Origin: Candidatus Omnitrophota bacterium
Lineage (GTDB): Bacteria; Ratteibacteria; UBA8468; B48-G9; JAFGKM01
Length of the DNA: 64,000 nt
Reading direction: 5' to 3'
NCBI GenBank assembly: GCA_023819375.1
Contig: JAMWDI010000002.1
Span: 57,076-121,075, forward strand
The notes under the pieces are model-generated. The model was given only the letters and a program-made list of their open reading frames with translations. It searched no databases and was not told the DNA's origin. This document shows positions 44,022 to 53,687 of this stretch, piece by piece. Each line of letters starts with the position of its first letter. Within the stretch, counting starts at the first letter, position 1. A program made the translations under genes and the position numbers.

Positions 44022-46226
44022 TCACATAATTGGTGGAAGTTCAAGCGCAGGATGCTTTTTTTCCTGTAAAAAGGGTAAAATCTCTTCTTCCGTTATTCCT
44101 ATTGTTTCATCAGCAATTCTGTCAAGTAAATCTGGTATTCCTATTTCTTCTGCTCTTTTTATAAATCTCTCTTTTATTTCTTCTTTTAACATTTTAGGCA
44201 TCCATACAAGACGTAAAATTCCACCTTCTGCTTGTAAAAATTTCTTTTGAGTTATGTTAAATTTTGAATGGCCAAGAAATCCAGGGATTTGTCTTCCACC
44301 TCCTATAGTTCCTGCTAAAGTTGTAAATTTCATTCCACAAGGAGTGTCTCCTTTATATTCTCTATTCACAGTCATAATTCCATTGCAAAGAGGCAAAACT
44401 ACTGCTATACACTCACAGCATCCACATGTTGTCATTGGATCCACCATTAAACTGTAAACACTTACCTTTTCTATTGTCCCTCTACTTGCTTTTTTAACAA
44501 ATTCATTAACTCCTTCCCATTGACCATATTTTTCATCAATAATTCTTCCTTTCTTAACTGGTTGATTAGGGCCAGTTGGATTTATTTTGTTTGATGCTCT
44601 ACAATCAAGCCAAGAAAAAGCCCCGCATAATCCTGTTCTTTCAGGAGTCACAATACACACATGATTTGGAGCAAATGATTGACAAAGTGTACAAGAATAA
44701 AAAGTGTCAACTTCCTCATCTGTAATCCCAGCAAGTCTTTCATCTCTGTGACGCCATACTCTTTTGGCTTTTTCAAGTATTTCTTTTACTTTTTCTTCCT
44801 CTGTGTAAATTTTAATCTGAACTTTATCAACTATATTTGAAAATACCTCATGATATTTTGCATGAATTGCTACACCAAGATGCCTCAATTTTAAACCTTT
44901 TTCTTTTGCTTTTTTGCTAATTCTTATCCAAACTATATCCCTCTGCCCTATATGCATAACTCCATTAATATAGTTTATATAATCGTGTATCTGTCTTTCT
45001 AATATAGGTTCAAAATCTTCCTGCATTTCTCTTCCAGCAACTTCAACTACAATTGCCAAAGGGATAGCACTTCCTTCTGGTAATTCATCTATTTCAGGAC
45101 CAATAACTTCTATTTTTCCATCTTCAACTTCATTTAATGGTAAACTTGTTGTCCACTCACAAGAAATGGTTTTTGCTCCTCCTGCTTCAAGATATAAATC
45201 CTCTTTTCTAACTCTCTCTCCTTCAAAAGCAGGTCCATATGGAACTGGAATATCTATTTTTGATACTGTTACTTTCAAACCCCTCACTTCCACTGCTTTG
45301 GATACAATTTCTGAATGAGGAATATTTGACACAACATGTTCATAAGTACATATTCCAGTAGGTAAAATCTGTGGTATTGGTGTATCTGCAATTGTAGGAA
45401 ATCCAAAATTTATTGCTCCTGCTGCATTTGCATACCATTCTTCATTAACGTAACCAAAAGCAAGAACAAAAGCAAAAATCCTATCTTTATTGTAAATCAA
45501 AATTCTTCTATAATCTCCTGGTTCAATACCTCCAAAACTCATCGCTGCCCTTACTGCAAAACCAAGTGCAAAAACTGCTTGGTATATATCAGGTCCGAAA
45601 GGAACAAGTCGTACTGGCCAACCAAGTTGAATCCCACTTTCCTTCAATTGTTCAGCAAATCTTTTGCCATTATATTCAGCACACATAAAAACATAAAGAT
45701 TCTTCTCTATCAATTCTGTTGCTATTCTTATTGCTGTTTCATTATCTGGAACAGAACCAACAACTGCTGCAAATCCTGGAGCAGTTCCATCAACAAATTC
45801 AATTCCTCTTTTCCTCAATATAATATCATTTGCTGCCCCAAGCCAAAGTTTATCTTCTGGTGGTTCCTCTTCTGGCCAATAAAAATCAGGTTCCTCTATA
45901 TACCTAATCGCTTCCATCATTTCTTCAGCAAATAGTGTTGCCATTCCTGCATCTAAAACAGGACCAAGATATGGTAAATGACAATCTTTGTAAACAGGTT
46001 CTGGTAAAAGGTCCCTACAAATTTTAAATACTTTTTCCATATGTGACAATTTAGATACAGGAATTCCAAGTATTCCATAAATTATCGGTAAATAATAAGC
46101 AGTTTCAGGAAAAGCAACATCTTGGTTTGGCCCATATTTATCCATTGCCATTTTCCATTTATTTTCAGCCATATTTACAATTTTATAAGCACCATTTATA
46201 GCAGCAGAGGCAATTATTTTTGACAT
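44022..46226 (-). CDS. acsB: acetyl-CoA synthase, CODH/ACS complex subunit beta
   Basis: AcsB joins CO, a methyl group from the corrinoid protein and CoA into acetyl-CoA at the A-cluster. The 734-residue length matches bacterial AcsB, which includes the N-terminal CODH-contact domain that archaeal CdhC lacks. The [4Fe-4S] ligands appear as SCTLCQSFAPNHVC and ERTGLCGAFSW (Cx2Cx8Cx9C). The dinickel bridge is TTCGCCECI, with the Cys-Gly-Cys that holds the distal Ni. GGAGGATAGG precedes the ATG. Last gene of the CODH/ACS cluster, followed by tRNA-Ser. Confidence 0.97.
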   Translation of the reverse strand: MSKIIASAAINGAYKIVNMAENKWKMAMDKYGPNQDVAFPETAYYLPIIYGILGIPVSKLSHMEKVFKICRDLLPEPVYKDCHLPYLGPVLDAGMATLFAEEMMEAIRYIEEPDFYWPEEEPPEDKLWLGAANDIILRKRGIEFVDGTAPGFAAVVGSVPDNETAIRIATELIEKNLYVFMCAEYNGKRFAEQLKESGIQLGWPVRLVPFGPDIYQAVFALGFAVRAAMSFGGIEPGDYRRILIYNKDRIFAFVLAFGYVNEEWYANAAGAINFGFPTIADTPIPQILPTGICTYEHVVSNIPHSEIVSKAVEVRGLKVTVSKIDIPVPYGPAFEGERVRKEDLYLEAGGAKTISCEWTTSLPLNEVEDGKIEVIGPEIDELPEGSAIPLAIVVEVAGREMQEDFEPILERQIHDYINYINGVMHIGQRDIVWIRISKKAKEKGLKLRHLGVAIHAKYHEVFSNIVDKVQIKIYTEEEKVKEILEKAKRVWRHRDERLAGITDEEVDTFYSCTLCQSFAPNHVCIVTPERTGLCGAFSWLDCRASNKINPTGPNQPVKKGRIIDEKYGQWEGVNEFVKKASRGTIEKVSVYSLMVDPMTTCGCCECIAVVLPLCNGIMTVNREYKGDTPCGMKFTTLAGTIGGGRQIPGFLGHSKFNITQKKFLQAEGGILRLVWMPKMLKEEIKERFIKRAEEIGIPDLLDRIADETIGITEEEILPFLQEKKHPALELPPIM

Positions 46227-46404
46227 CCTATCCTCCTTTTTCTCTTAACTTGCTTGCATAATTTAAAAAAGCATTAAAGTATTCTTTTTCCACAACTCAT
46301 CACTTAACTTAAAATTTTTCTTACTCCAAACTCCCTTACACTTTTTTTATACATTTCTTATATCAATTTTTTTAAATTCGGATAATTTCATTCTATTCTT
46401 CTCG

Positions 46405-48291
46405 TCATTCAAGTTCTCTTCTCATTGCCATATCATAAAGAATTCTTTCCCTTGCTTTATCTATCCCAAGTTTTCTTCTTTTTTCATCTATATGTTTTAA
46501 TATCAATTCTGCCATTTTATCAGGATCTGATTCAAAAGCCCATTTTCCACCAACTTCTTTTTCAATATCTTCAAATAAATATTTTGTTAAATTTTTACTT
46601 CCTAAAGTTGGCCAAGTAACTCCAAAAACAACAAATATTCCTGAAGAAACAAAATATTGACCTATACTTAATGCTTTCTCACTCATCCATTCCGGCGCTG
46701 CTCCTGCCGCTGGCAATTCTGAAATATCATCTCCAAGTCCTCCTTCCTTCACAACACAAGTTGCTGCCATTAAAATCCTTGAATTATCAACACAACTACC
46801 CATATGAATAACAGGTGGGATGCCAACCGCTTCACAAACTTCTCTTAATCCTTTTCCAGCATAATTTAAACCCTTAACAGAATCTAAGAATCCCGCTTTA
46901 GCACAAGCAATTGCAGAACAACCAGTTTGTAAAACTAAAACATCATTTTCTATAAGTTTACTTACAAGTTTTATATGAATTTCGTCATGAGAAACCTTTG
47001 GATTATTACAGCCAACCACTCCTGCAATTCCTCTTATTTTTCCATTTATAATATTGTCATTCAAAGGCCTGTATGATGCTCTAAATCTACCACCAAGTAT
47101 GTAATAAATACTCTCATAAGAAAAACCAGCAACCAAATCTATTTGACTTTCAGGAATTATAACATTTTCCTTTTTTCTATTTTCAAAATTTTCAATGGCC
47201 ATTTTAATTATTTCTTTTGCCTTTTCTAAAGCATTTTCTTCTGTGAATTTAACATGAATAGCACCTGGTATTTTTGTTTTTTCTGATGTTGTTATAATTT
47301 TTGTATGAAAACAAGAAGCAATTTCAGGTAATGAAGCCATAATACATTGAACATCAACAACCATAACTTCTACAGCACCTGTAGTAATTGCCATCTCTTG
47401 ATTTAGAAAATTTCCTATAATTGGAATTCCATGTCTCATTAAAATTTCATTTGCTGTACAACATATTCCTCCTATATTTATTCCCTTTGCTCCTTTCTGT
47501 TTTGCAAGATTTATAAGTTCTGGATCTTCTGAAGCAACAACTATCATTTCAGATAGAAGTGGTTCATGTCCATGAACAATAATATTCACATAATCATCTT
47601 TCAATACTCCAAAGTTTACTCTTCCTAAAATTGGTTCAGGAGTTCCAAACAAAACATCTTGAAGATCAGTTGCAACCATTGAACCGCCCCACCCATCAGA
47701 TAAAGCACATCTTTGTGCTTGTTTCATTAAGTTATAGAAATCCTGGTCTGTTCCCATATGTGTTCTATGAAGAGATTCAACAACTTCTCTATCAATTCCC
47801 CTTGGAGTAATCTCTAAATCTGACCAAATTCTCTGTCTTTTTACAGGTGCTCTTTTAGTAAAAATCAAATTCCCTTCTTGTTGGCCAAACTGTGAAAGAC
47901 ATATTTCACCAACTTTAAGCGCAATTTCTTCTATCTTTTTATCCTTTACATCTATTCCAAATTCAAGAGCAAGTTTAATAAGTTTAAACTCATCCTTAAT
48001 TTCATAACCAATTGCCTCTTTTCTTGCCACTTTTATTAAGGTCTCTGCAACTGCTCTTCCATGGTCAGAGTGTGCACTTGCTCCAACTGCAATTTTTCTT
48101 AAAAAATTTCTAGCAACAATAACATCCTCATCCGCACCACAAACACCTTTCTTAGGACCATCATCAAAAGGACTTATTCTACAAGGACCCATAGAACAAT
48201 TCCTACAACAAATTTCAAAAATTCCAAATCCACATTGTGGTTCCTGTGATTTCAATCTTTCTTCTGCTGTAGTAAATTTTTTTTCACTCAT
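46405..48291 (-). CDS. cooS: Ni-Fe-S carbon monoxide dehydrogenase catalytic subunit
   Basis: The 628-residue CODH interconverts CO2 and CO at the C-cluster. The D/B-cluster region is CGFGIFEICCRNC and SMGPCRISPF. C-cluster ligands are suggested by VHGHEPLLSEM (His), GGICCTANEIL, VVGCNNPKV, QTGCSAIACAKAG and MGSCVDNSRI. ASAHSDHGRAVAE is the conserved N-terminal block. As neighbour of acsB it is probably the AcsA subunit of the bifunctional complex. Its ATG overlaps the short NuoG-like gene by 4 bp. A 178-bp gap separates it from acsB. Confidence 0.97.
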   Translation of the reverse strand: MSEKKFTTAEERLKSQEPQCGFGIFEICCRNCSMGPCRISPFDDGPKKGVCGADEDVIVARNFLRKIAVGASAHSDHGRAVAETLIKVARKEAIGYEIKDEFKLIKLALEFGIDVKDKKIEEIALKVGEICLSQFGQQEGNLIFTKRAPVKRQRIWSDLEITPRGIDREVVESLHRTHMGTDQDFYNLMKQAQRCALSDGWGGSMVATDLQDVLFGTPEPILGRVNFGVLKDDYVNIIVHGHEPLLSEMIVVASEDPELINLAKQKGAKGINIGGICCTANEILMRHGIPIIGNFLNQEMAITTGAVEVMVVDVQCIMASLPEIASCFHTKIITTSEKTKIPGAIHVKFTEENALEKAKEIIKMAIENFENRKKENVIIPESQIDLVAGFSYESIYYILGGRFRASYRPLNDNIINGKIRGIAGVVGCNNPKVSHDEIHIKLVSKLIENDVLVLQTGCSAIACAKAGFLDSVKGLNYAGKGLREVCEAVGIPPVIHMGSCVDNSRILMAATCVVKEGGLGDDISELPAAGAAPEWMSEKALSIGQYFVSSGIFVVFGVTWPTLGSKNLTKYLFEDIEKEVGGKWAFESDPDKMAELILKHIDEKRRKLGIDKARERILYDMAMRRELE

Positions 48292-49061
48292 TTTTTTCCT
48301 CCAGTCAAAGAAAATGGTAATAATTTATCAACATAATTCTTTCCTTTGCATTCATTACAAATTAGAAATATATCAAGTAAAACATTTGCACCCAATTTAT
48401 TTTTAATATATTCAATAAGTTTTTTAGGAATAAAAGGTTTCTGACAGATTTTACATTTTTCCAGTTCAAGTTTTGCATTTATTTTTTTTATAATTCTTTC
48501 ATTTTTAATATCTTCTACTTTAATTGCATCAACAGGACACACAAAACTACAAGCACCACAACCAATACAATTAGTAGGTTCTTTTTCAAAAGGAGAAGAT
48601 ACTTTTCTCTCTATCCCCCTTTGGGAAAAACTTATTGCACTAACTCCAATTATCTCTTTACAAACATTAACACATAATCCACATAAAATACAATCATCAT
48701 TCCCAATGCCGAATCTTGGTTCAACTTCATATTTTTCTGCATATTCTTTGACTTTTCCTTTATAACCAACTTTTGCAATTAGAAGTTCAAGTATCAATTT
48801 TCTTATTTTTACTACATTTTCATTATTAGTTTCTATTTTTATCTCATCCTCTACAGGGAAATTACAGGCAGTAACATATCTTTTTCTACCATTTCTTTCT
48901 ATTTCAACAATACATAATCTACAAGCACCATAAGGTTCAATGGCTGAGTGATAACATAATGTTGGTATTTCAATTCCAACATCCTGTGCTATTTTTAAAA
49001 TTGTTATTCTTTTAGGCACGATCTTTTTAATCCCATCAATTATTATTTCAACACTTTTCAT
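48288..49061 (-). CDS. NuoG/HydA-type iron-sulfur subunit, truncated (no catalytic domain)
   Basis: The 257-residue protein has a [2Fe-2S] plant-type ferredoxin domain (CYHSAIEPYGACRLC, then TACNFPVED). A His/Cys-less linker follows, then two [4Fe-4S] sets (DDCILCGLCVNVCKEI and TNCIGCGACSFVCPVDAI). A C-terminal tail has CKICQKPFIP and LICNECKG, a possible extra Cys4 metal site. It equals the N-terminal electron-relay part of NuoG, HydA or NAD-formate dehydrogenase alpha subunits but lacks the H-cluster or molybdopterin domain. Placed between NuoF-like and cooS, it probably wires the diaphorase to CODH. Confidence 0.88.
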   Translation of the reverse strand: MKSVEIIIDGIKKIVPKRITILKIAQDVGIEIPTLCYHSAIEPYGACRLCIVEIERNGRKRYVTACNFPVEDEIKIETNNENVVKIRKLILELLIAKVGYKGKVKEYAEKYEVEPRFGIGNDDCILCGLCVNVCKEIIGVSAISFSQRGIERKVSSPFEKEPTNCIGCGACSFVCPVDAIKVEDIKNERIIKKINAKLELEKCKICQKPFIPKKLIEYIKNKLGANVLLDIFLICNECKGKNYVDKLLPFSLTGGKK

Positions 49062-49063
49062 TT

Positions 49064-50911
49064 TTATTTCCTTTCAATTGCATTAAATTTACAGATGGTA
49101 AAGCATATTCCACATTTAATACACTTTTCTTTATTTATTTTATGAATTTTTTTCCTTTCTCCTTCTATTGCATTTACTGGACAATTTTTAGCACATAAAG
49201 TGCAACCAGTACATTTCTCTGTGTTTACAAAATACTCAATCAAATCTTTACAAACACCAGCAGAACATTTTTTTTGCTCAATATGATTAATATACTCATC
49301 ATAAAAGTAAGTAATTGTTGTCAAAACAGGATTTGGAGCAGTTGTTCCAAGGGCACATAAAGATGCTTTTTGCATAAAATCAGAAATTTCCTTTAAAATT
49401 TCAATATCTTCCTTTTTTCCTTTGCCTTGAGTTATTCTATTTAAAATTTCAAGCATTTGATTTATACCTTCTCTACAGGGAACACATTTACCACATGATT
49501 CTTCTTTTAAAAAATTTAGAAAATATCTTGCAACATCAACCATACATGTATCCTCATCCATAACAATCATACCTCCTGAACCCATCATAGACCCAACTTC
49601 ATTCAATCTGTCAAAATCAACAGGTAAATCAAGATATTTCTCAGGTATAACTCCTCCTGAAGGTCCCCCTGTTTGAACCCCTTTAAATTTTTTATTTTCT
49701 TTTATTCCTCCACCTATATCAAAAATTATTTCTCTTAAAGTAATTCCCATCGGAACTTCAACAAGTCCTGTATTTTTAACCTTACCAACAAGTGAAAAAA
49801 TTTTTGTTCCTTTGCTTGTATCTGTCCCGATTTCTGCAAACTTTTCCCATCCATTGTTTATTATAAAAGGAACATTTGCCCAAGTTTCAACATTATTAAG
49901 ACAGGTTGGTTTTTCATATAATCCTTTTTCAACAGTATGTATATATTTTGCTCTTGGTTCTCCAACTTTCCCTTCAATTGATGCCATCAAAGCAGTTGAT
50001 TCACCACAAACAAAAGCACCTCCACCTCTAACAATATCAATATCAAAAGAAAATCCAGAACCAAGAATATTTTCTCCAAGGAATCCATATTCTCTTGCTT
50101 GTTCAATAGCAATTTTCAACCTTTTTAAAGCAAGAGGATATTCATGCCTGATATATACATAACCTTCATTTGAACCAATAGCATAAGCCCCTATAATCAT
50201 TCCTTCTATAACTGAATGAGGATTCCCTTCTATTACACTTCTATCCATAAAAGCACCAGGATCCCCTTCATCAGCATTACAGATTACATATTTTGGATAA
50301 CCTTCTGCTTTTCTACAATATTCCCATTTTTTACCCGTTGGGAATCCGCCACCACCTCTTCCCCTTAATCCTGATTTTTTAATCTCCTCAATTACTTCTT
50401 CTGGGCTCATTCCAGATAGAACTTTTGATAAAGCAGTATAACCACCATAGTAAATATAATCCTCTATATTTTCAGGATCAATTAAGCCATTCAAAGAAAG
50501 AACCAATCTTTTTTGCTTTTTATAAAATGGAATTTGGTCAAGATATGGTATAATTTGCCCTTTTTCATCTTTATATGTCAACCTTTCAACAATTTCTCCT
50601 TTTTTTATTGTCTTTTCAATTATTTCTTTTACATCATTTGGGCTCAACCTAATATAAAATATTTTTTCTGGGTAAATCACTATAGCAGGATCCACTTCTG
50701 AAAACCCATGACATCCAGTTTTAATTACCTTTATCTCTTTATTTTTTACTTTTTTAATTTCTTTTCGTAATTCTCTGTAAATTTCTTCACTTCCTGCAGC
50801 AATACAGCCAGTTTCCATGCAAACACTTATAATGATTTTTTCTTTATCTTTAATCCCCTTTAATTTTTTTCTCAATTTTTCAAGTTCTTCAAAACTGTTT
50901 ATTTTTTTCAT
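49064..50911 (-). CDS. NuoF/HydB-like NAD(P)-binding flavoprotein
   Basis: The 615-residue subunit is the NAD(P)H-FMN module of bifurcating hydrogenase/complex I-like enzymes. An N-terminal thioredoxin-like [2Fe-2S] domain (CMETGCIAAGSEEIY, TGCHGF) is followed by the FMN/NAD core (SGLRGRGGGGFPTGKKWE, CNADEGDPGAFMDRS), the N3 cluster ESCGKCVPCREG, and a C-terminal 2[4Fe-4S] ferredoxin (CTGCTLCAKNCPVNAI, CIKCGICFTICKFNAI). This layout matches HydB/HndC rather than plain NuoF. It overlaps the NuoE-like gene by 23 bp. Confidence 0.93.
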   Translation of the reverse strand: MKKINSFEELEKLRKKLKGIKDKEKIIISVCMETGCIAAGSEEIYRELRKEIKKVKNKEIKVIKTGCHGFSEVDPAIVIYPEKIFYIRLSPNDVKEIIEKTIKKGEIVERLTYKDEKGQIIPYLDQIPFYKKQKRLVLSLNGLIDPENIEDYIYYGGYTALSKVLSGMSPEEVIEEIKKSGLRGRGGGGFPTGKKWEYCRKAEGYPKYVICNADEGDPGAFMDRSVIEGNPHSVIEGMIIGAYAIGSNEGYVYIRHEYPLALKRLKIAIEQAREYGFLGENILGSGFSFDIDIVRGGGAFVCGESTALMASIEGKVGEPRAKYIHTVEKGLYEKPTCLNNVETWANVPFIINNGWEKFAEIGTDTSKGTKIFSLVGKVKNTGLVEVPMGITLREIIFDIGGGIKENKKFKGVQTGGPSGGVIPEKYLDLPVDFDRLNEVGSMMGSGGMIVMDEDTCMVDVARYFLNFLKEESCGKCVPCREGINQMLEILNRITQGKGKKEDIEILKEISDFMQKASLCALGTTAPNPVLTTITYFYDEYINHIEQKKCSAGVCKDLIEYFVNTEKCTGCTLCAKNCPVNAIEGERKKIHKINKEKCIKCGICFTICKFNAIERK

Positions 50912-51362
50912 TTTCTAAACCTTTAATTATTTTTTCTGTTTTTCTCACATCCATTTGACCATAATATTTTTCATTTATAACAACGATAGGGCCAATAGCA
51001 CAAGCACCAAGACAATTAACTGTATCAAAGGAAAAAAGACCATCTTCTGTTGTTTCTCCTGGTAAAATTCCAAATTTGTTCTTTAAAAATTCCGCAATCA
51101 TATATCCACCTCTCACATGGCAAGCGGTTCCAAGACAAACTTTTATTCTGTATTTCCCTTTTGGTTTTAAAGAAAATGCTCTGTAAAAAGTTGAAATTGA
51201 ATAAATTTGAGAAAGAGGAATATTAAGTTTTTCAGAAATATAAATAAGAATATCTTCTGGCAAATAACTGTAACTATCTTGAATGTCCTGTAAAATTCCG
51301 ACTATTTTATTTTTACTCCATCCGTTTTTTTCTAAAATTTTATCTACTTCTAATTTTCTCAT
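50889..51362 (-). CDS. NuoE/HydC-like [2Fe-2S] subunit
   Basis: The 157-residue thioredoxin-like ferredoxin (24-kDa subunit family) has a helical N-terminal part (ILQDIQDSYSYLPEDILIYI) and [2Fe-2S] ligands in CLGTACHVRG and VNCLGACAIGPIV. A TTG start 21 bp upstream is possible. The ATG at 51362 has AGAGAAGA before it and is preferred. It overlaps the ferredoxin gene by 23 bp and nuoF by 23 bp, showing tight coupling of the electron-transfer module. Confidence 0.92.
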   Translation of the reverse strand: MRKLEVDKILEKNGWSKNKIVGILQDIQDSYSYLPEDILIYISEKLNIPLSQIYSISTFYRAFSLKPKGKYRIKVCLGTACHVRGGYMIAEFLKNKFGILPGETTEDGLFSFDTVNCLGACAIGPIVVINEKYYGQMDVRKTEKIIKGLENEKNKQF

Positions 51363-51816
51363 ATTCTTCTCTAAACTCAACAAATTTCAATGCTTTATTT
51401 GGACAACTTAAAACACAAGCAGGCAACATATCTTTTTTTAATCTTTCTATACAAAAATCACACTTTATATGAATTTTTTTATCTCTATTTATATTTAGTA
51501 TTCCGTAGGGACAAACAATAGCACACATTCCACATCCAATACATTTTTTTTCTTCTATAATTACAATTCCGTTCTCATCCTTCTCTAATGCTCCAGTTGG
51601 ACAGATAATAACACAGGAAGGAAAATCACAATGTAAACATCTTAAGGGAGTAATAAATTTCTCAATTTTTTTAATCTTTACAGAAGGAAATCTATCGGGA
51701 TTTTTCATAAATTCAAAAAAATTATTTTTCTTACTATGAGAGAAAGCACATTCAATTTCACAGGTTCTACACGCAAAACACCTTTCAACATTTACAATAA
51801 TCTTACTCCTTTTCAT
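51340..51816 (-). CDS. polyferredoxin, CooF/HycB type
   Basis: The 158-residue protein has four Cys clusters: CFACRTCEIECAF, CLHCDFPSCVIICPTGAL, CIGCGMCAIVCPYGIL and CDFCIERLKKDMLPACVLSC. This is the pattern of CooF, the electron acceptor of CO dehydrogenase, and of HycB/DmsB-like subunits with four [4Fe-4S] clusters. No signal peptide, so it is cytoplasmic. Its ATG overlaps the acsD stop by 4 bp. It probably carries electrons between CODH and the NuoEF-like module. Confidence 0.9.
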   Translation of the reverse strand: MKRSKIIVNVERCFACRTCEIECAFSHSKKNNFFEFMKNPDRFPSVKIKKIEKFITPLRCLHCDFPSCVIICPTGALEKDENGIVIIEEKKCIGCGMCAIVCPYGILNINRDKKIHIKCDFCIERLKKDMLPACVLSCPNKALKFVEFREEYEKIRSR

Positions 51817-52748
51817 TTCATATCCATAATAAGTTTTTCAATTAACTTAACAGTTTCTGGATGTCTAATTACGACAATATCTGCTCCTGCAAGTAAAAGC
51901 AAAATTCCTGTTAATGCTTCAAACATAATACCTCTTTCTTTTTCTTTTCCAAGTTTAAAGTCAATATTTTCAGGAATACTAACTTCTTTAATTTTCCAAA
52001 CTTCTTTTGATAAATAACAATACAAAGGAAAGGCAAGTTTATCATCGCCCTGTAAAAGTCCAGCAAGTCTATCTCTTTCCATAACAGAATAAGTATACTC
52101 AATGCCATAACCAAGCGCTCCAATCGTTGGATCCATTATAATTTTATTTTCAGGTACTCCAAGTTCTAAAAGTAAAATATTTAATTGTTTTGCAAGATTT
52201 ATATCAATTGGAGTTGAAGCAACCACTACCTGTTTATATGCAATTGCACTTGCTCCAATTTGCTTGTAATTCTTATCAACAACAGGCCCAACACCTACAT
52301 TTTTACCACTTGCAACTTCACAGACCATTTTCAAAACATCAATATCTTTTTGAACATTACCAGTCCCCCAAAAAATCATAGGAATATCAATTTCTTCAAC
52401 TAATTTTTCTACAACAGGTCTAATCTCTTCCACACTTCTATTTAATCCATTTGGATCTGTTGAATTTAAAAATATAGTTAAACACTTTGCAGAGTATTCA
52501 TTCACACATTTTTTAGCCCATTCAACAGGATTGTTTATTACATCCTTATAAGGGACAAGACAACTTTCTGGCCAATCCTCTGGAATACTATCCCATACTT
52601 CAAAGGAAATAACAGGTGGATTAGGAATTACTCCCTCAAATGTATGAAAGTTTAGACAATCTTGTCCTCCAACTTTTATTTTTTTGTCACCTACACCAAT
52701 TTCAACTTCTCTTATCTTTCCGGTATATTTCAATTTTACATCTTCCAT
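51813..52748 (-). CDS. acsD: CODH/ACS delta subunit (corrinoid iron-sulfur protein small subunit)
   Basis: The 311-residue TIM-barrel protein pairs with AcsC to carry the methyl-cobamide to acetyl-CoA synthase. Its family sequence is recognisable: DVKLKYTGKIREVEIG, GGQDCLNFHTFEG, PPVISFEVWDSIPEDWPE and MDPTIGALGYGIEYTYSVME. Its partner genes acsC (large subunit) and acsE (methyltransferase) are not in the window and must lie elsewhere if the pathway is complete. AAAGGAG lies just before the ATG. Confidence 0.94.
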   Translation of the reverse strand: MEDVKLKYTGKIREVEIGVGDKKIKVGGQDCLNFHTFEGVIPNPPVISFEVWDSIPEDWPESCLVPYKDVINNPVEWAKKCVNEYSAKCLTIFLNSTDPNGLNRSVEEIRPVVEKLVEEIDIPMIFWGTGNVQKDIDVLKMVCEVASGKNVGVGPVVDKNYKQIGASAIAYKQVVVASTPIDINLAKQLNILLLELGVPENKIIMDPTIGALGYGIEYTYSVMERDRLAGLLQGDDKLAFPLYCYLSKEVWKIKEVSIPENIDFKLGKEKERGIMFEALTGILLLLAGADIVVIRHPETVKLIEKLIMDMK

Positions 52749-52759
52749 CTTTTCTCCTT

Positions 52760-52930
52760 TTAAGCAGGTGTTTTCCTTTTTTCACTTCCATATCCTTCCC
52801 CAAACCAATATCTTTCACTTGTTTTTATAAATTTAATCATTTCTTCTCTATTTTCAAATTTTTTCCATTTAAGTGGTTTATCTGGTTTCCCCTCTTTATA
52901 TGTTTCTCCAAGAACTTTTTTATTTTCCAT
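52760..52930 (-). CDS. 56-residue protein of unknown function in the CODH/ACS cluster
   Basis: The ORF starts at ATG 52930, which overlaps the cooC end by 11 bp and has GGAGGAG at ideal spacing, and ends TAA at 52760, 12 bp before acsD. The product reads MENKKVLGETYKEGKPDK, then PLKWKKFENREEMIKFIKT and an aromatic, glycine-rich tail SERYWFGEGYGSEKRKTPA. No cysteine, signal or membrane segment. Coding pattern, ribosome-binding site and exact fit between cooC and acsD argue it is real. A small accessory or assembly factor is an inference; I know no named family. Confidence 0.75.
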   Translation of the reverse strand: MENKKVLGETYKEGKPDKPLKWKKFENREEMIKFIKTSERYWFGEGYGSEKRKTPA

Positions 52931-53687
52931 TTTTCTCCTCCATTTTATTTACTATATTCTCAAGATAATCCAAAATTTCAGGAACTGCTTCCCATGGAGT
53001 TAGTCCTTTTAATTCACTTTTTTTAAATTCACTAAAATATGGAATAAAACCAAGGATTTCCATTCTATTTAACTTTTTTCTCATAAATTCTTTTTCTTCA
53101 TCTAATTCAACTTTATTTCCGATTACTCCTATTTTTTTTATTTTTATTTCTTTTGCTAAATTTTCTATCCTTTCTGTTGTTTCAATACTTTTTTCTGTTG
53201 GTTCAGTTATTATAAGTAACCAGTCAATTCCTTCTGTTGTTCCTCTTCCAAGATGTTCAATGCCTGCAGGCATATCAAGGATAACAACTTCATTCCTTTT
53301 TAAAATCAAATTTCTTAAAATTGCTTTTAAAAAAGCATTTTCAGGACACATACATCCTAAACCTCCGCCTTTTACAGTTCCCATAATTCCAAAAAGCAAA
53401 TTCCCATTCTTATAAAAAAATTTATCTGGGATATCGTCAACCTCTGGATTCATTTTAAAAAATATAGGTCTTTCATCTGGTTTTGTTCCTGTTCTTTCTG
53501 CAATAATTTCTTTAAGTTCAATTAAAGGAATAATTTCCTCTTTTATATTTAAAGTTGATTTTAAATTGGCATCAGGATCAGCATCAATTAAAATAACCCT
53601 TTTCCCCTTTTTTAAATATATTTGAGAAAGACAGGCAGCAATTGTTGTTTTTCCAGTCCCACCCTTTCCAGATATTGCAATTTTCAT
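52920..53687 (-). CDS. cooC: CO dehydrogenase nickel-insertion ATPase CooC
   Basis: The 255-residue MinD/NifH-like ATPase matures the Ni site of CODH/ACS. Deviant Walker A is ISGKGGTGKTTIAACL, Walker B lies around VVILDMPAGIEHLGRG, and the dimer-bridging nickel motif is GCMCPEN (Cys-x-Cys), diagnostic for CooC/AcsF. IDADPDANLKSTL is the switch region. No ribosome-binding site is seen; the promoter's -10 box ends 10 nt before the ATG, suggesting a leaderless mRNA. It is the first gene of the cluster running to acsB. Confidence 0.95.
   Translation of the reverse strand: MKIAISGKGGTGKTTIAACLSQIYLKKGKRVILIDADPDANLKSTLNIKEEIIPLIELKEIIAERTGTKPDERPIFFKMNPEVDDIPDKFFYKNGNLLFGIMGTVKGGGLGCMCPENAFLKAILRNLILKRNEVVILDMPAGIEHLGRGTTEGIDWLLIITEPTEKSIETTERIENLAKEIKIKKIGVIGNKVELDEEKEFMRKKLNRMEILGFIPYFSEFKKSELKGLTPWEAVPEILDYLENIVNKMEEKNGK

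Follow-up and report, generated by a model that had tools for sequence, protein, structure and literature searches.

Codh-Bfu, a complex of a Ni-CODH with an electron-bifurcating BfuABC core, has been predicted from four Firmicutes sequences, with Acetohalobium arabaticum and Clostridium cellulovorans being the organisms named (Schut et al. 2022, PMC9304861). It was proposed to serve CO oxidation, a bifurcating enzyme possibly permitting the oxidation of very low CO, and in both named organisms cooS lies between bfuB and bfuA; this sandwiching of the CODH genes was used as an argument and does not define Codh-Bfu (PMC9304861). The locus described here shares with that system the combination of BfuABC, a Ni-CODH and extra 4Fe-4S subunits, together with a short Type 2 BfuA, but differs from it in that bfuA lies between bfuB and cooS, acsB and acsD belong to the operon, and the host is of another phylum.

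Other known enzymes resemble parts of this arrangement. Wor-Bfu, a bifurcating tungsten aldehyde oxidoreductase (9MQX), is comparable in the length and predicted fold of BfuA, in its HydB-like BfuB and in a CooF-like ferredoxin subunit, while its catalytic subunit is an aldehyde oxidoreductase and not CooS. Among the HydABC and NiFe-HydABCSL (7T2R) enzymes, the HydB chain of the bifurcating NiFe hydrogenase (NiFe-Bfu; 7t2r_B) is the closest solved chain to our BfuB by sequence (E 1e-241), but our locus contains neither a hydrogenase domain nor a hydrogenase subunit. Finally, the known CODH-CooF-FNOR clusters (Geelhoed 2016, PMC4703632; Inoue 2019, PMC6344411) likewise carry cooF and a flavoprotein beside cooS, and occupy the equivalent slot in sister genomes of the one studied here; their FNOR is a single FAD protein, whereas ours is a Bfu module.

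The union of a CODH with a bifurcating module, which the preliminary description of this DNA had put forward, had already been proposed in 2022 (PMC9304861). What is new is the presence of Codh-Bfu inside CODH/ACS operons, its wider phylogenetic spread, the exchange of FNOR and Bfu in one slot, cooF remaining as the connector in either case, and a stripped variant of the module. From the gene content, the cofactor ligands, the predicted BfuA fold and the conserved pairing observed here, we consider it probable (about 0.65) that the operon encodes a bifurcating Codh-Bfu complex joined to acetyl-CoA synthase and wired CooS–CooF–BfuA–BfuBC, whose assembly, coupling and direction we infer.

Gene Content and Organization of the Locus

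The window, that is, the whole stretch of 64,000 nucleotides analysed, corresponds to positions 57076-121075 of contig C3 in a genome of 1.73 Mb that is 93.8% complete. Nine intact ORFs, from cooC to acsB, lie on one strand:

52920..53687, minus strand: cooC, Ni-insertion NTPase, 255 aa; matches to the CbiA/NTPase families, with orthologues at the equivalent place in relatives
52763..52930, minus strand: conserved ORF for a small protein of 56 aa, found upstream of acsD in 31 loci
51813..52748, minus strand: acsD, corrinoid iron-sulfur protein small subunit, 311 aa; CdhD/AcsD models
51340..51816, minus strand: cooF-like ferredoxin, 158 aa, with 16 Cys corresponding to four [4Fe-4S] sites
50889..51362, minus strand: bfuC (NuoE/HydC-like), one [2Fe-2S]; PF01257 at 4.9e-47
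49064..50911, minus strand: bfuB (HydB/NuoF-like), 615 aa; FMN/NAD(H) domain, B1-B4 cluster ligands, His543 of the bifurcating B2 site
48288..49061, minus strand: bfuA, Type 2, 257 aa; N-terminal [2Fe-2S], two [4Fe-4S], C-terminal CxxC..CxxC, 16 Cys
46405..48291, minus strand: cooS, Ni-CODH catalytic subunit, 628 aa; TIGR01702 at 672 bits
44022..46226, minus strand: acsB, acetyl-CoA synthase, 734 aa; NF040764 at 1093 bits

Between acsD and cooS every gene overlaps its neighbour except for bfuB and bfuA, which are separated by 2 bp, the distances being −4 bp for acsD-cooF, −23 bp for cooF-bfuC, −23 bp for bfuC-bfuB, +2 bp for bfuB-bfuA and −4 bp for bfuA-cooS, followed by +178 bp for cooS-acsB. 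For bfuC, the ORF list places the start at a TTG at position 51383, and the ATG at 51362 is the likelier start. The ORF check and the Pfam and NCBIfam scans agree with the preliminary description in gene content, position and strand; the CODH/ACS cluster contains neither a hydrogenase nor a formate dehydrogenase (FDH) gene. Pfam and NCBIfam matched no family to the 56-aa ORF. The GC content of the module (0.28-0.31) and its GC3 (0.12-0.18) are similar to those of the neighbouring genes, so that composition gives no sign of a recent horizontal transfer of the module.

In CooS the ligands of the D, B and C clusters are complete. Specifically, by the usual cluster assignment in CODH structures, C20 and C28 belong to the D cluster, C29, C32, C37 and C51 to the B cluster, and H242, C278, C316, C428, C458 and C500 to the C cluster.

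Cofactor Sites of the Predicted Bfu Module

As judged from their sequences, the three NuoEFG-like genes code for a typical BfuABC electron-bifurcating core with a Type 2 (short) BfuA. In BfuB, the Pfam matches comprise an N-terminal thioredoxin-like domain, the 51K FMN/NAD domain, SLBB (25.1 bits, slightly below the cut-off of 27), NADH_4Fe-4S and a C-terminal 2x[4Fe-4S] domain, the last four of which, presuming the correspondence between InterPro and Pfam entries, are the domains that characterise BfuB in the Bfu family. The ligands of B1, B3 and B4 are all kept. At the B2 site, an unusual [2Fe-2S] site with one His, for which the reference ligands in A. mobile are H525, C438, C476, C531 and C536, four of the five are present (H543, C456, C549 and C554, with His543 equivalent to H525), and the fifth position, that of C476, is Thr494; this position is variable in other Bfu members too, the bifurcating T. 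kivui HydB included. The N-terminal [2Fe-2S] site of BfuB (B5) consists, in the window's genus, of C31, C36 and C67 together with Ser71 in place of one Cys, which speaks against the reading favoured here, and the B5 site of the related genome G008 shows an altered pattern resembling that of NfnB in 9n5u. In BfuC the cysteines are C83, C88, C124 and C128, in the numbering of the 164-aa ORF.

BfuA contains no His-Cys cluster, no match to NADH-G_4Fe-4S_3 and no catalytic domain. A BfuA of about 240-260 aa is nevertheless a normal form and not, as first described, a truncated NuoG-like protein: 29 genes of this kind occur, spread over 28 of the 80 nearest BfuB loci, where the partners include an oxoacid oxidoreductase and an aldehyde oxidoreductase, among others. 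In an AlphaFold2 model (pLDDT 88.7), BfuA is predicted to have the fold of 9mqx_A, its best match (Z 25.0, rmsd 3.3 over 243 residues; next Z 21.4). CooF matches chain E of 9mqx in sequence at 2.5e-19, with other ferredoxin-type subunits, e.g. 2vpw_B, scoring higher. BfuA, BfuB and CooF thus each correspond to a subunit of a single solved bifurcating enzyme, 9MQX, which is the nearest solved relative of the module.

These cofactor sites bear on the possibility that the module is a simple diaphorase, through which a plain NAD(P)-coupled CODH would pass the electrons of CO to NAD without ferredoxin or bifurcation. The CO/CO2 couple, at −520 mV at standard CO, lies below either acceptor, so that direct NAD reduction is possible and bifurcation is not thermodynamically required. 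A locus of this simpler type also exists: in G040 (L143), the order cooF-cooS-nuoE is accompanied by a BfuB without the B2, B3 and B4 ligands, and this locus is predicted to be a natural stripped, non-bifurcating NuoEF version. The window's BfuB, however, retains precisely what G040 lost, namely His543, Cys549, Cys554 and the C-terminal 2x[4Fe-4S], and we regard the diaphorase as an unlikely explanation. The earlier proposal of an NAD(P)-coupled, possibly bifurcating enzyme accords with a BfuABC bearing the cofactor ligands of bifurcating enzymes, with NAD or NADP as the predicted cofactor.

Pairing of CooS with Bfu Genes in Other Phyla

The distribution of the arrangement was followed by one profile scan of genome contigs and by CooS searches in further phyla, the groups being named by their record labels. 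The pairing of cooS with bfuCBA recurs, in one group with identical gene order and in others with different orders. Specifically, cooS and bfu genes occur together in a Deltaproteobacteria-labelled group (G059, with the gene order of the window, and G868); in six Spirochaetales-related genomes, as cooC-cooS-cooF-bfuC-bfuB, followed by bfuA-acsB-acsC where the contig runs on; in one Phycisphaerae genome, as bfuB-bfuA-cooS-acsB-acsC; and in a Clostridia-related group, as bfuB-cooS-bfuA and in other orders without acsB, which reproduces the published Codh-Bfu. The sandwiched position of cooS between bfuB and bfuA was seen in L258 and L259, as opposed to bfuC-bfuB-bfuA-cooS in the window. Altogether, acsB was directly seen with Codh-Bfu in nine genomes of four phyla (G000, G023, G008, G059, G072, G075, G510, G474 and G035). 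The pairing is rare: the Planctomycetota-related search yielded it once among 30 inspected loci, and the Clostridia-related one five times among 30; its recurrence in other groups places the arrangement far beyond chance.

In compiling these loci, L163/L226 was removed from the Bfu-linked set, as it contains a ferredoxin domain only. The bfuB that seemed to be missing from L140 had been masked by a shadow ORF and is intact. L144 (G045) is ambiguous, a molybdopterin FDH-like gene following bfuB.

The Bfu label on the CooS tree needs seven changes. A single clade of all CODH-linked bifurcating-type BfuBs is rejected by the AU test (p 1.9e-8, n=16, including the Clostridia-related loci), and the pairing therefore arose repeatedly. 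For the BfuBs of ACS-type loci alone (n=11), one clade is not rejected (AU p 0.15); several origins among these ACS-linked BfuBs are likely.

CooF as the Probable Connector and Exchange of Modules in One Slot

Across 96 CooS loci, most of them surveyed with flanks of 1.5 kb, within which distant modules could be missed, cooF adjoins cooS in 15 of the 17 loci with a flavoprotein versus 3 of the 79 without one; both exceptions among the 17 are contig-limited, and the cooF counted for L144, at a distance of ~5 kb, is doubtful. The same association is found within the window's phylum, where 13 of 35 genomes contain cooS. Here the slot between acsD and cooS holds cooF with bfuCBA (G000, G023, G008), cooF with FNOR, a pyridine nucleotide-disulphide oxidoreductase of the NirB/PadH type (G001, G002, G031, G032), or is empty (G011, G026, G027, G028), so that cooF is present in 7/7 genomes with a flavoprotein versus 0/4 without (Fisher p 0.003). 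Because CooF accompanies the flavoprotein and resembles the ferredoxin subunit found in 9MQX, it probably wires CooS to BfuA.

This modifies the earlier claim that CooS itself replaces the catalytic domain otherwise joined to a NuoEF module. The claim is borne out insofar as the CODH pairing recurs, with no FDH or hydrogenase in the cluster; its direct docking of CooS on the NuoG-like subunit, in which CooF would play no part, may draw on the 4-bp overlap of bfuA and cooS, but it appears very improbable in view of the flavoprotein-linked occurrence of cooF and its 9MQX counterpart, and CooF likely stands between the two.

The exchange of modules is also relevant to the idea that BfuABC is a separate NADH/ferredoxin enzyme, merely co-expressed with CODH/ACS, and that CooS uses free ferredoxin. 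Such an enzyme would agree with the many partners with which Bfu modules pair, and with the absence of the module from close relatives: G026, of the same genus, lacks it despite a CooS 89% identical to that of the window, which makes the module dispensable for CODH/ACS, an accessory wiring option and not a catalytic need. We nevertheless hold two unconnected enzymes to be improbable, since the genes overlap, cooF is present or absent together with the flavoprotein, FNOR replaces Bfu in one slot, the Clostridia-related group has cooS between bfuB and bfuA, and the short BfuA has no catalytic site of its own. In addition, the repeated pairing of CooS and Bfu is hard to explain as an accident of neighbourhood.

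Proposed Electron Path and Direction

In the Codh-Bfu complex that we favour, CooS would interconvert CO2 and CO, exchanging electrons through its D and B clusters with the four-cluster ferredoxin CooF, from which, by analogy with 9MQX and with the Bfu proposal, they would pass to BfuA and on to the BfuBC core. In that core, a single FMN and adjacent clusters would couple CO/CO2 simultaneously to NAD(H) and ferredoxin, as in 9MQX, and AcsB would consume the CO made by CooS.

The likeliest use of such a complex would be CO2 reduction with NADH and reduced ferredoxin acting together as donors, CO being held very low by ACS and ferredoxin thereby saved; in the reverse direction, acetyl-CoA oxidation would return both carriers. 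By our calculation, the mean of the NADH (−280 mV) and ferredoxin (−500 mV) potentials, ~ −390 mV, equals the CO2/CO potential at ~4e-5 atm CO, the latter being about −431 mV at 1e-3 atm and −372 mV at 1e-5 atm. As AcsB could hold CO that low, NADH could share in CO2 reduction. We therefore advance, tentatively and as a possibility with the odds against it, that the CO for acetyl-CoA synthase comes from electron confurcation, CO2 being reduced at CooS by NADH together with reduced ferredoxin, a reaction that becomes possible because AcsB keeps CO very low, and that this would be an NADH-linked variant of the Wood-Ljungdahl carbonyl branch that spares ferredoxin, gained several times as flavoprotein modules were exchanged in a single operon slot.

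In the usual view, reduced ferredoxin is the only electron carrier that CODH/ACS works with. Were NADH to provide half of the electrons, the energy balance of acetogenic CO2 fixation would be different, as would that of its reversal. Related cooS genes flanked by Bfu, by FNOR, by a stripped NuoEF or by no module form a natural comparison set, which includes same-genus pairs with CooS 89% identical.

Other Redox Enzymes Encoded in the Genome

The Wood-Ljungdahl pathway appears to be encoded complete, with acsC-acsE on contig C13, FTHFS on C12 and fchA-folD-metVF, these last genes named by reading of the sequence, on C9. The term 'hydrogenase-less', applied to the module at the outset, is right for it but not for the genome, which encodes a [NiFe] hydrogenase together with folD and metVF, and a group-4-like hydrogenase/Mrp complex on C12. 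The H-cluster domain PF02906 has no match anywhere in the genome, and hence an [FeFe] hydrogenase is absent.

As the genome encodes both an FDH and a [NiFe] hydrogenase, BfuABC might instead serve one of these enzymes from a distance. We consider this extremely unlikely, since a NuoE and a NuoF-NfnB fusion are already encoded in the FDH operon, on C8, and the hydrogenase genes lie beside folD and metVF. The preliminary description had named a second such module next to an FDH or hydrogenase as evidence against a role with CooS; the one on C8 is literally of that kind, but every FDH is supplied with a NuoEF pair of its own, which leaves BfuABC to CooS, and the claim is not refuted by it. In G059 and G008, too, an FDH with a further NuoEF module lies near the CODH/ACS operon. 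Rnf is encoded on C2.

Small genes of the CODH/ACS operon

52763-52930, (-) strand: gene for a 56-aa protein, upstream of acsD
46227-46404: gap between cooS and acsB, in which two small genes are present as short remnants

The 56-aa protein, which ends in the C-terminal motif ERYW[FY]...GSEKRK, is conserved upstream of acsD at 31 loci belonging to several phyla. When Pfam and NCBIfam families were looked for, none matched, and the protein is possibly an unnamed CODH/ACS-associated small protein. As regards the cooS-acsB gap, one remnant derives from a DUF5674 gene and the other from an unnamed gene; G023, G026 and G027, three genomes of the same genus, carry both genes in intact form.

Other loci

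In the Spirochaetales-related CODH/ACS-Bfu operons L213, L214 (9633-11317) and L215, a SpoIIE-type phosphatase gene separates cooF from bfuC; the L214 insertion also holds a PAS protein gene. At locus L143 (54-5557), cooF-cooS is followed by the genes for NuoE and for a NuoF devoid of the B2, B3 and B4 cluster ligands, making this locus a candidate for encoding a simple NAD-reducing CODH.

Within the window's own genome, contig C8 (L004, 6217-12373) encodes NuoE, a NuoG-FdhA fusion and a 1000-aa fusion of NuoF with an NfnB/GltD-like FAD domain, together possibly a formate dehydrogenase contacting both NAD and NADP. On contig C9 (L223, 5000-10846), [NiFe] hydrogenase small and large subunit genes are flanked by fchA-folD and metV-metF, an arrangement that suggests hydrogen-linked methylene-THF reduction. 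Contig C12 (L224, 3470-15194) encodes an Mrp antiporter/group-4-hydrogenase-like complex; among its components are a CooF-like ferredoxin and a subunit resembling an FAD reductase.
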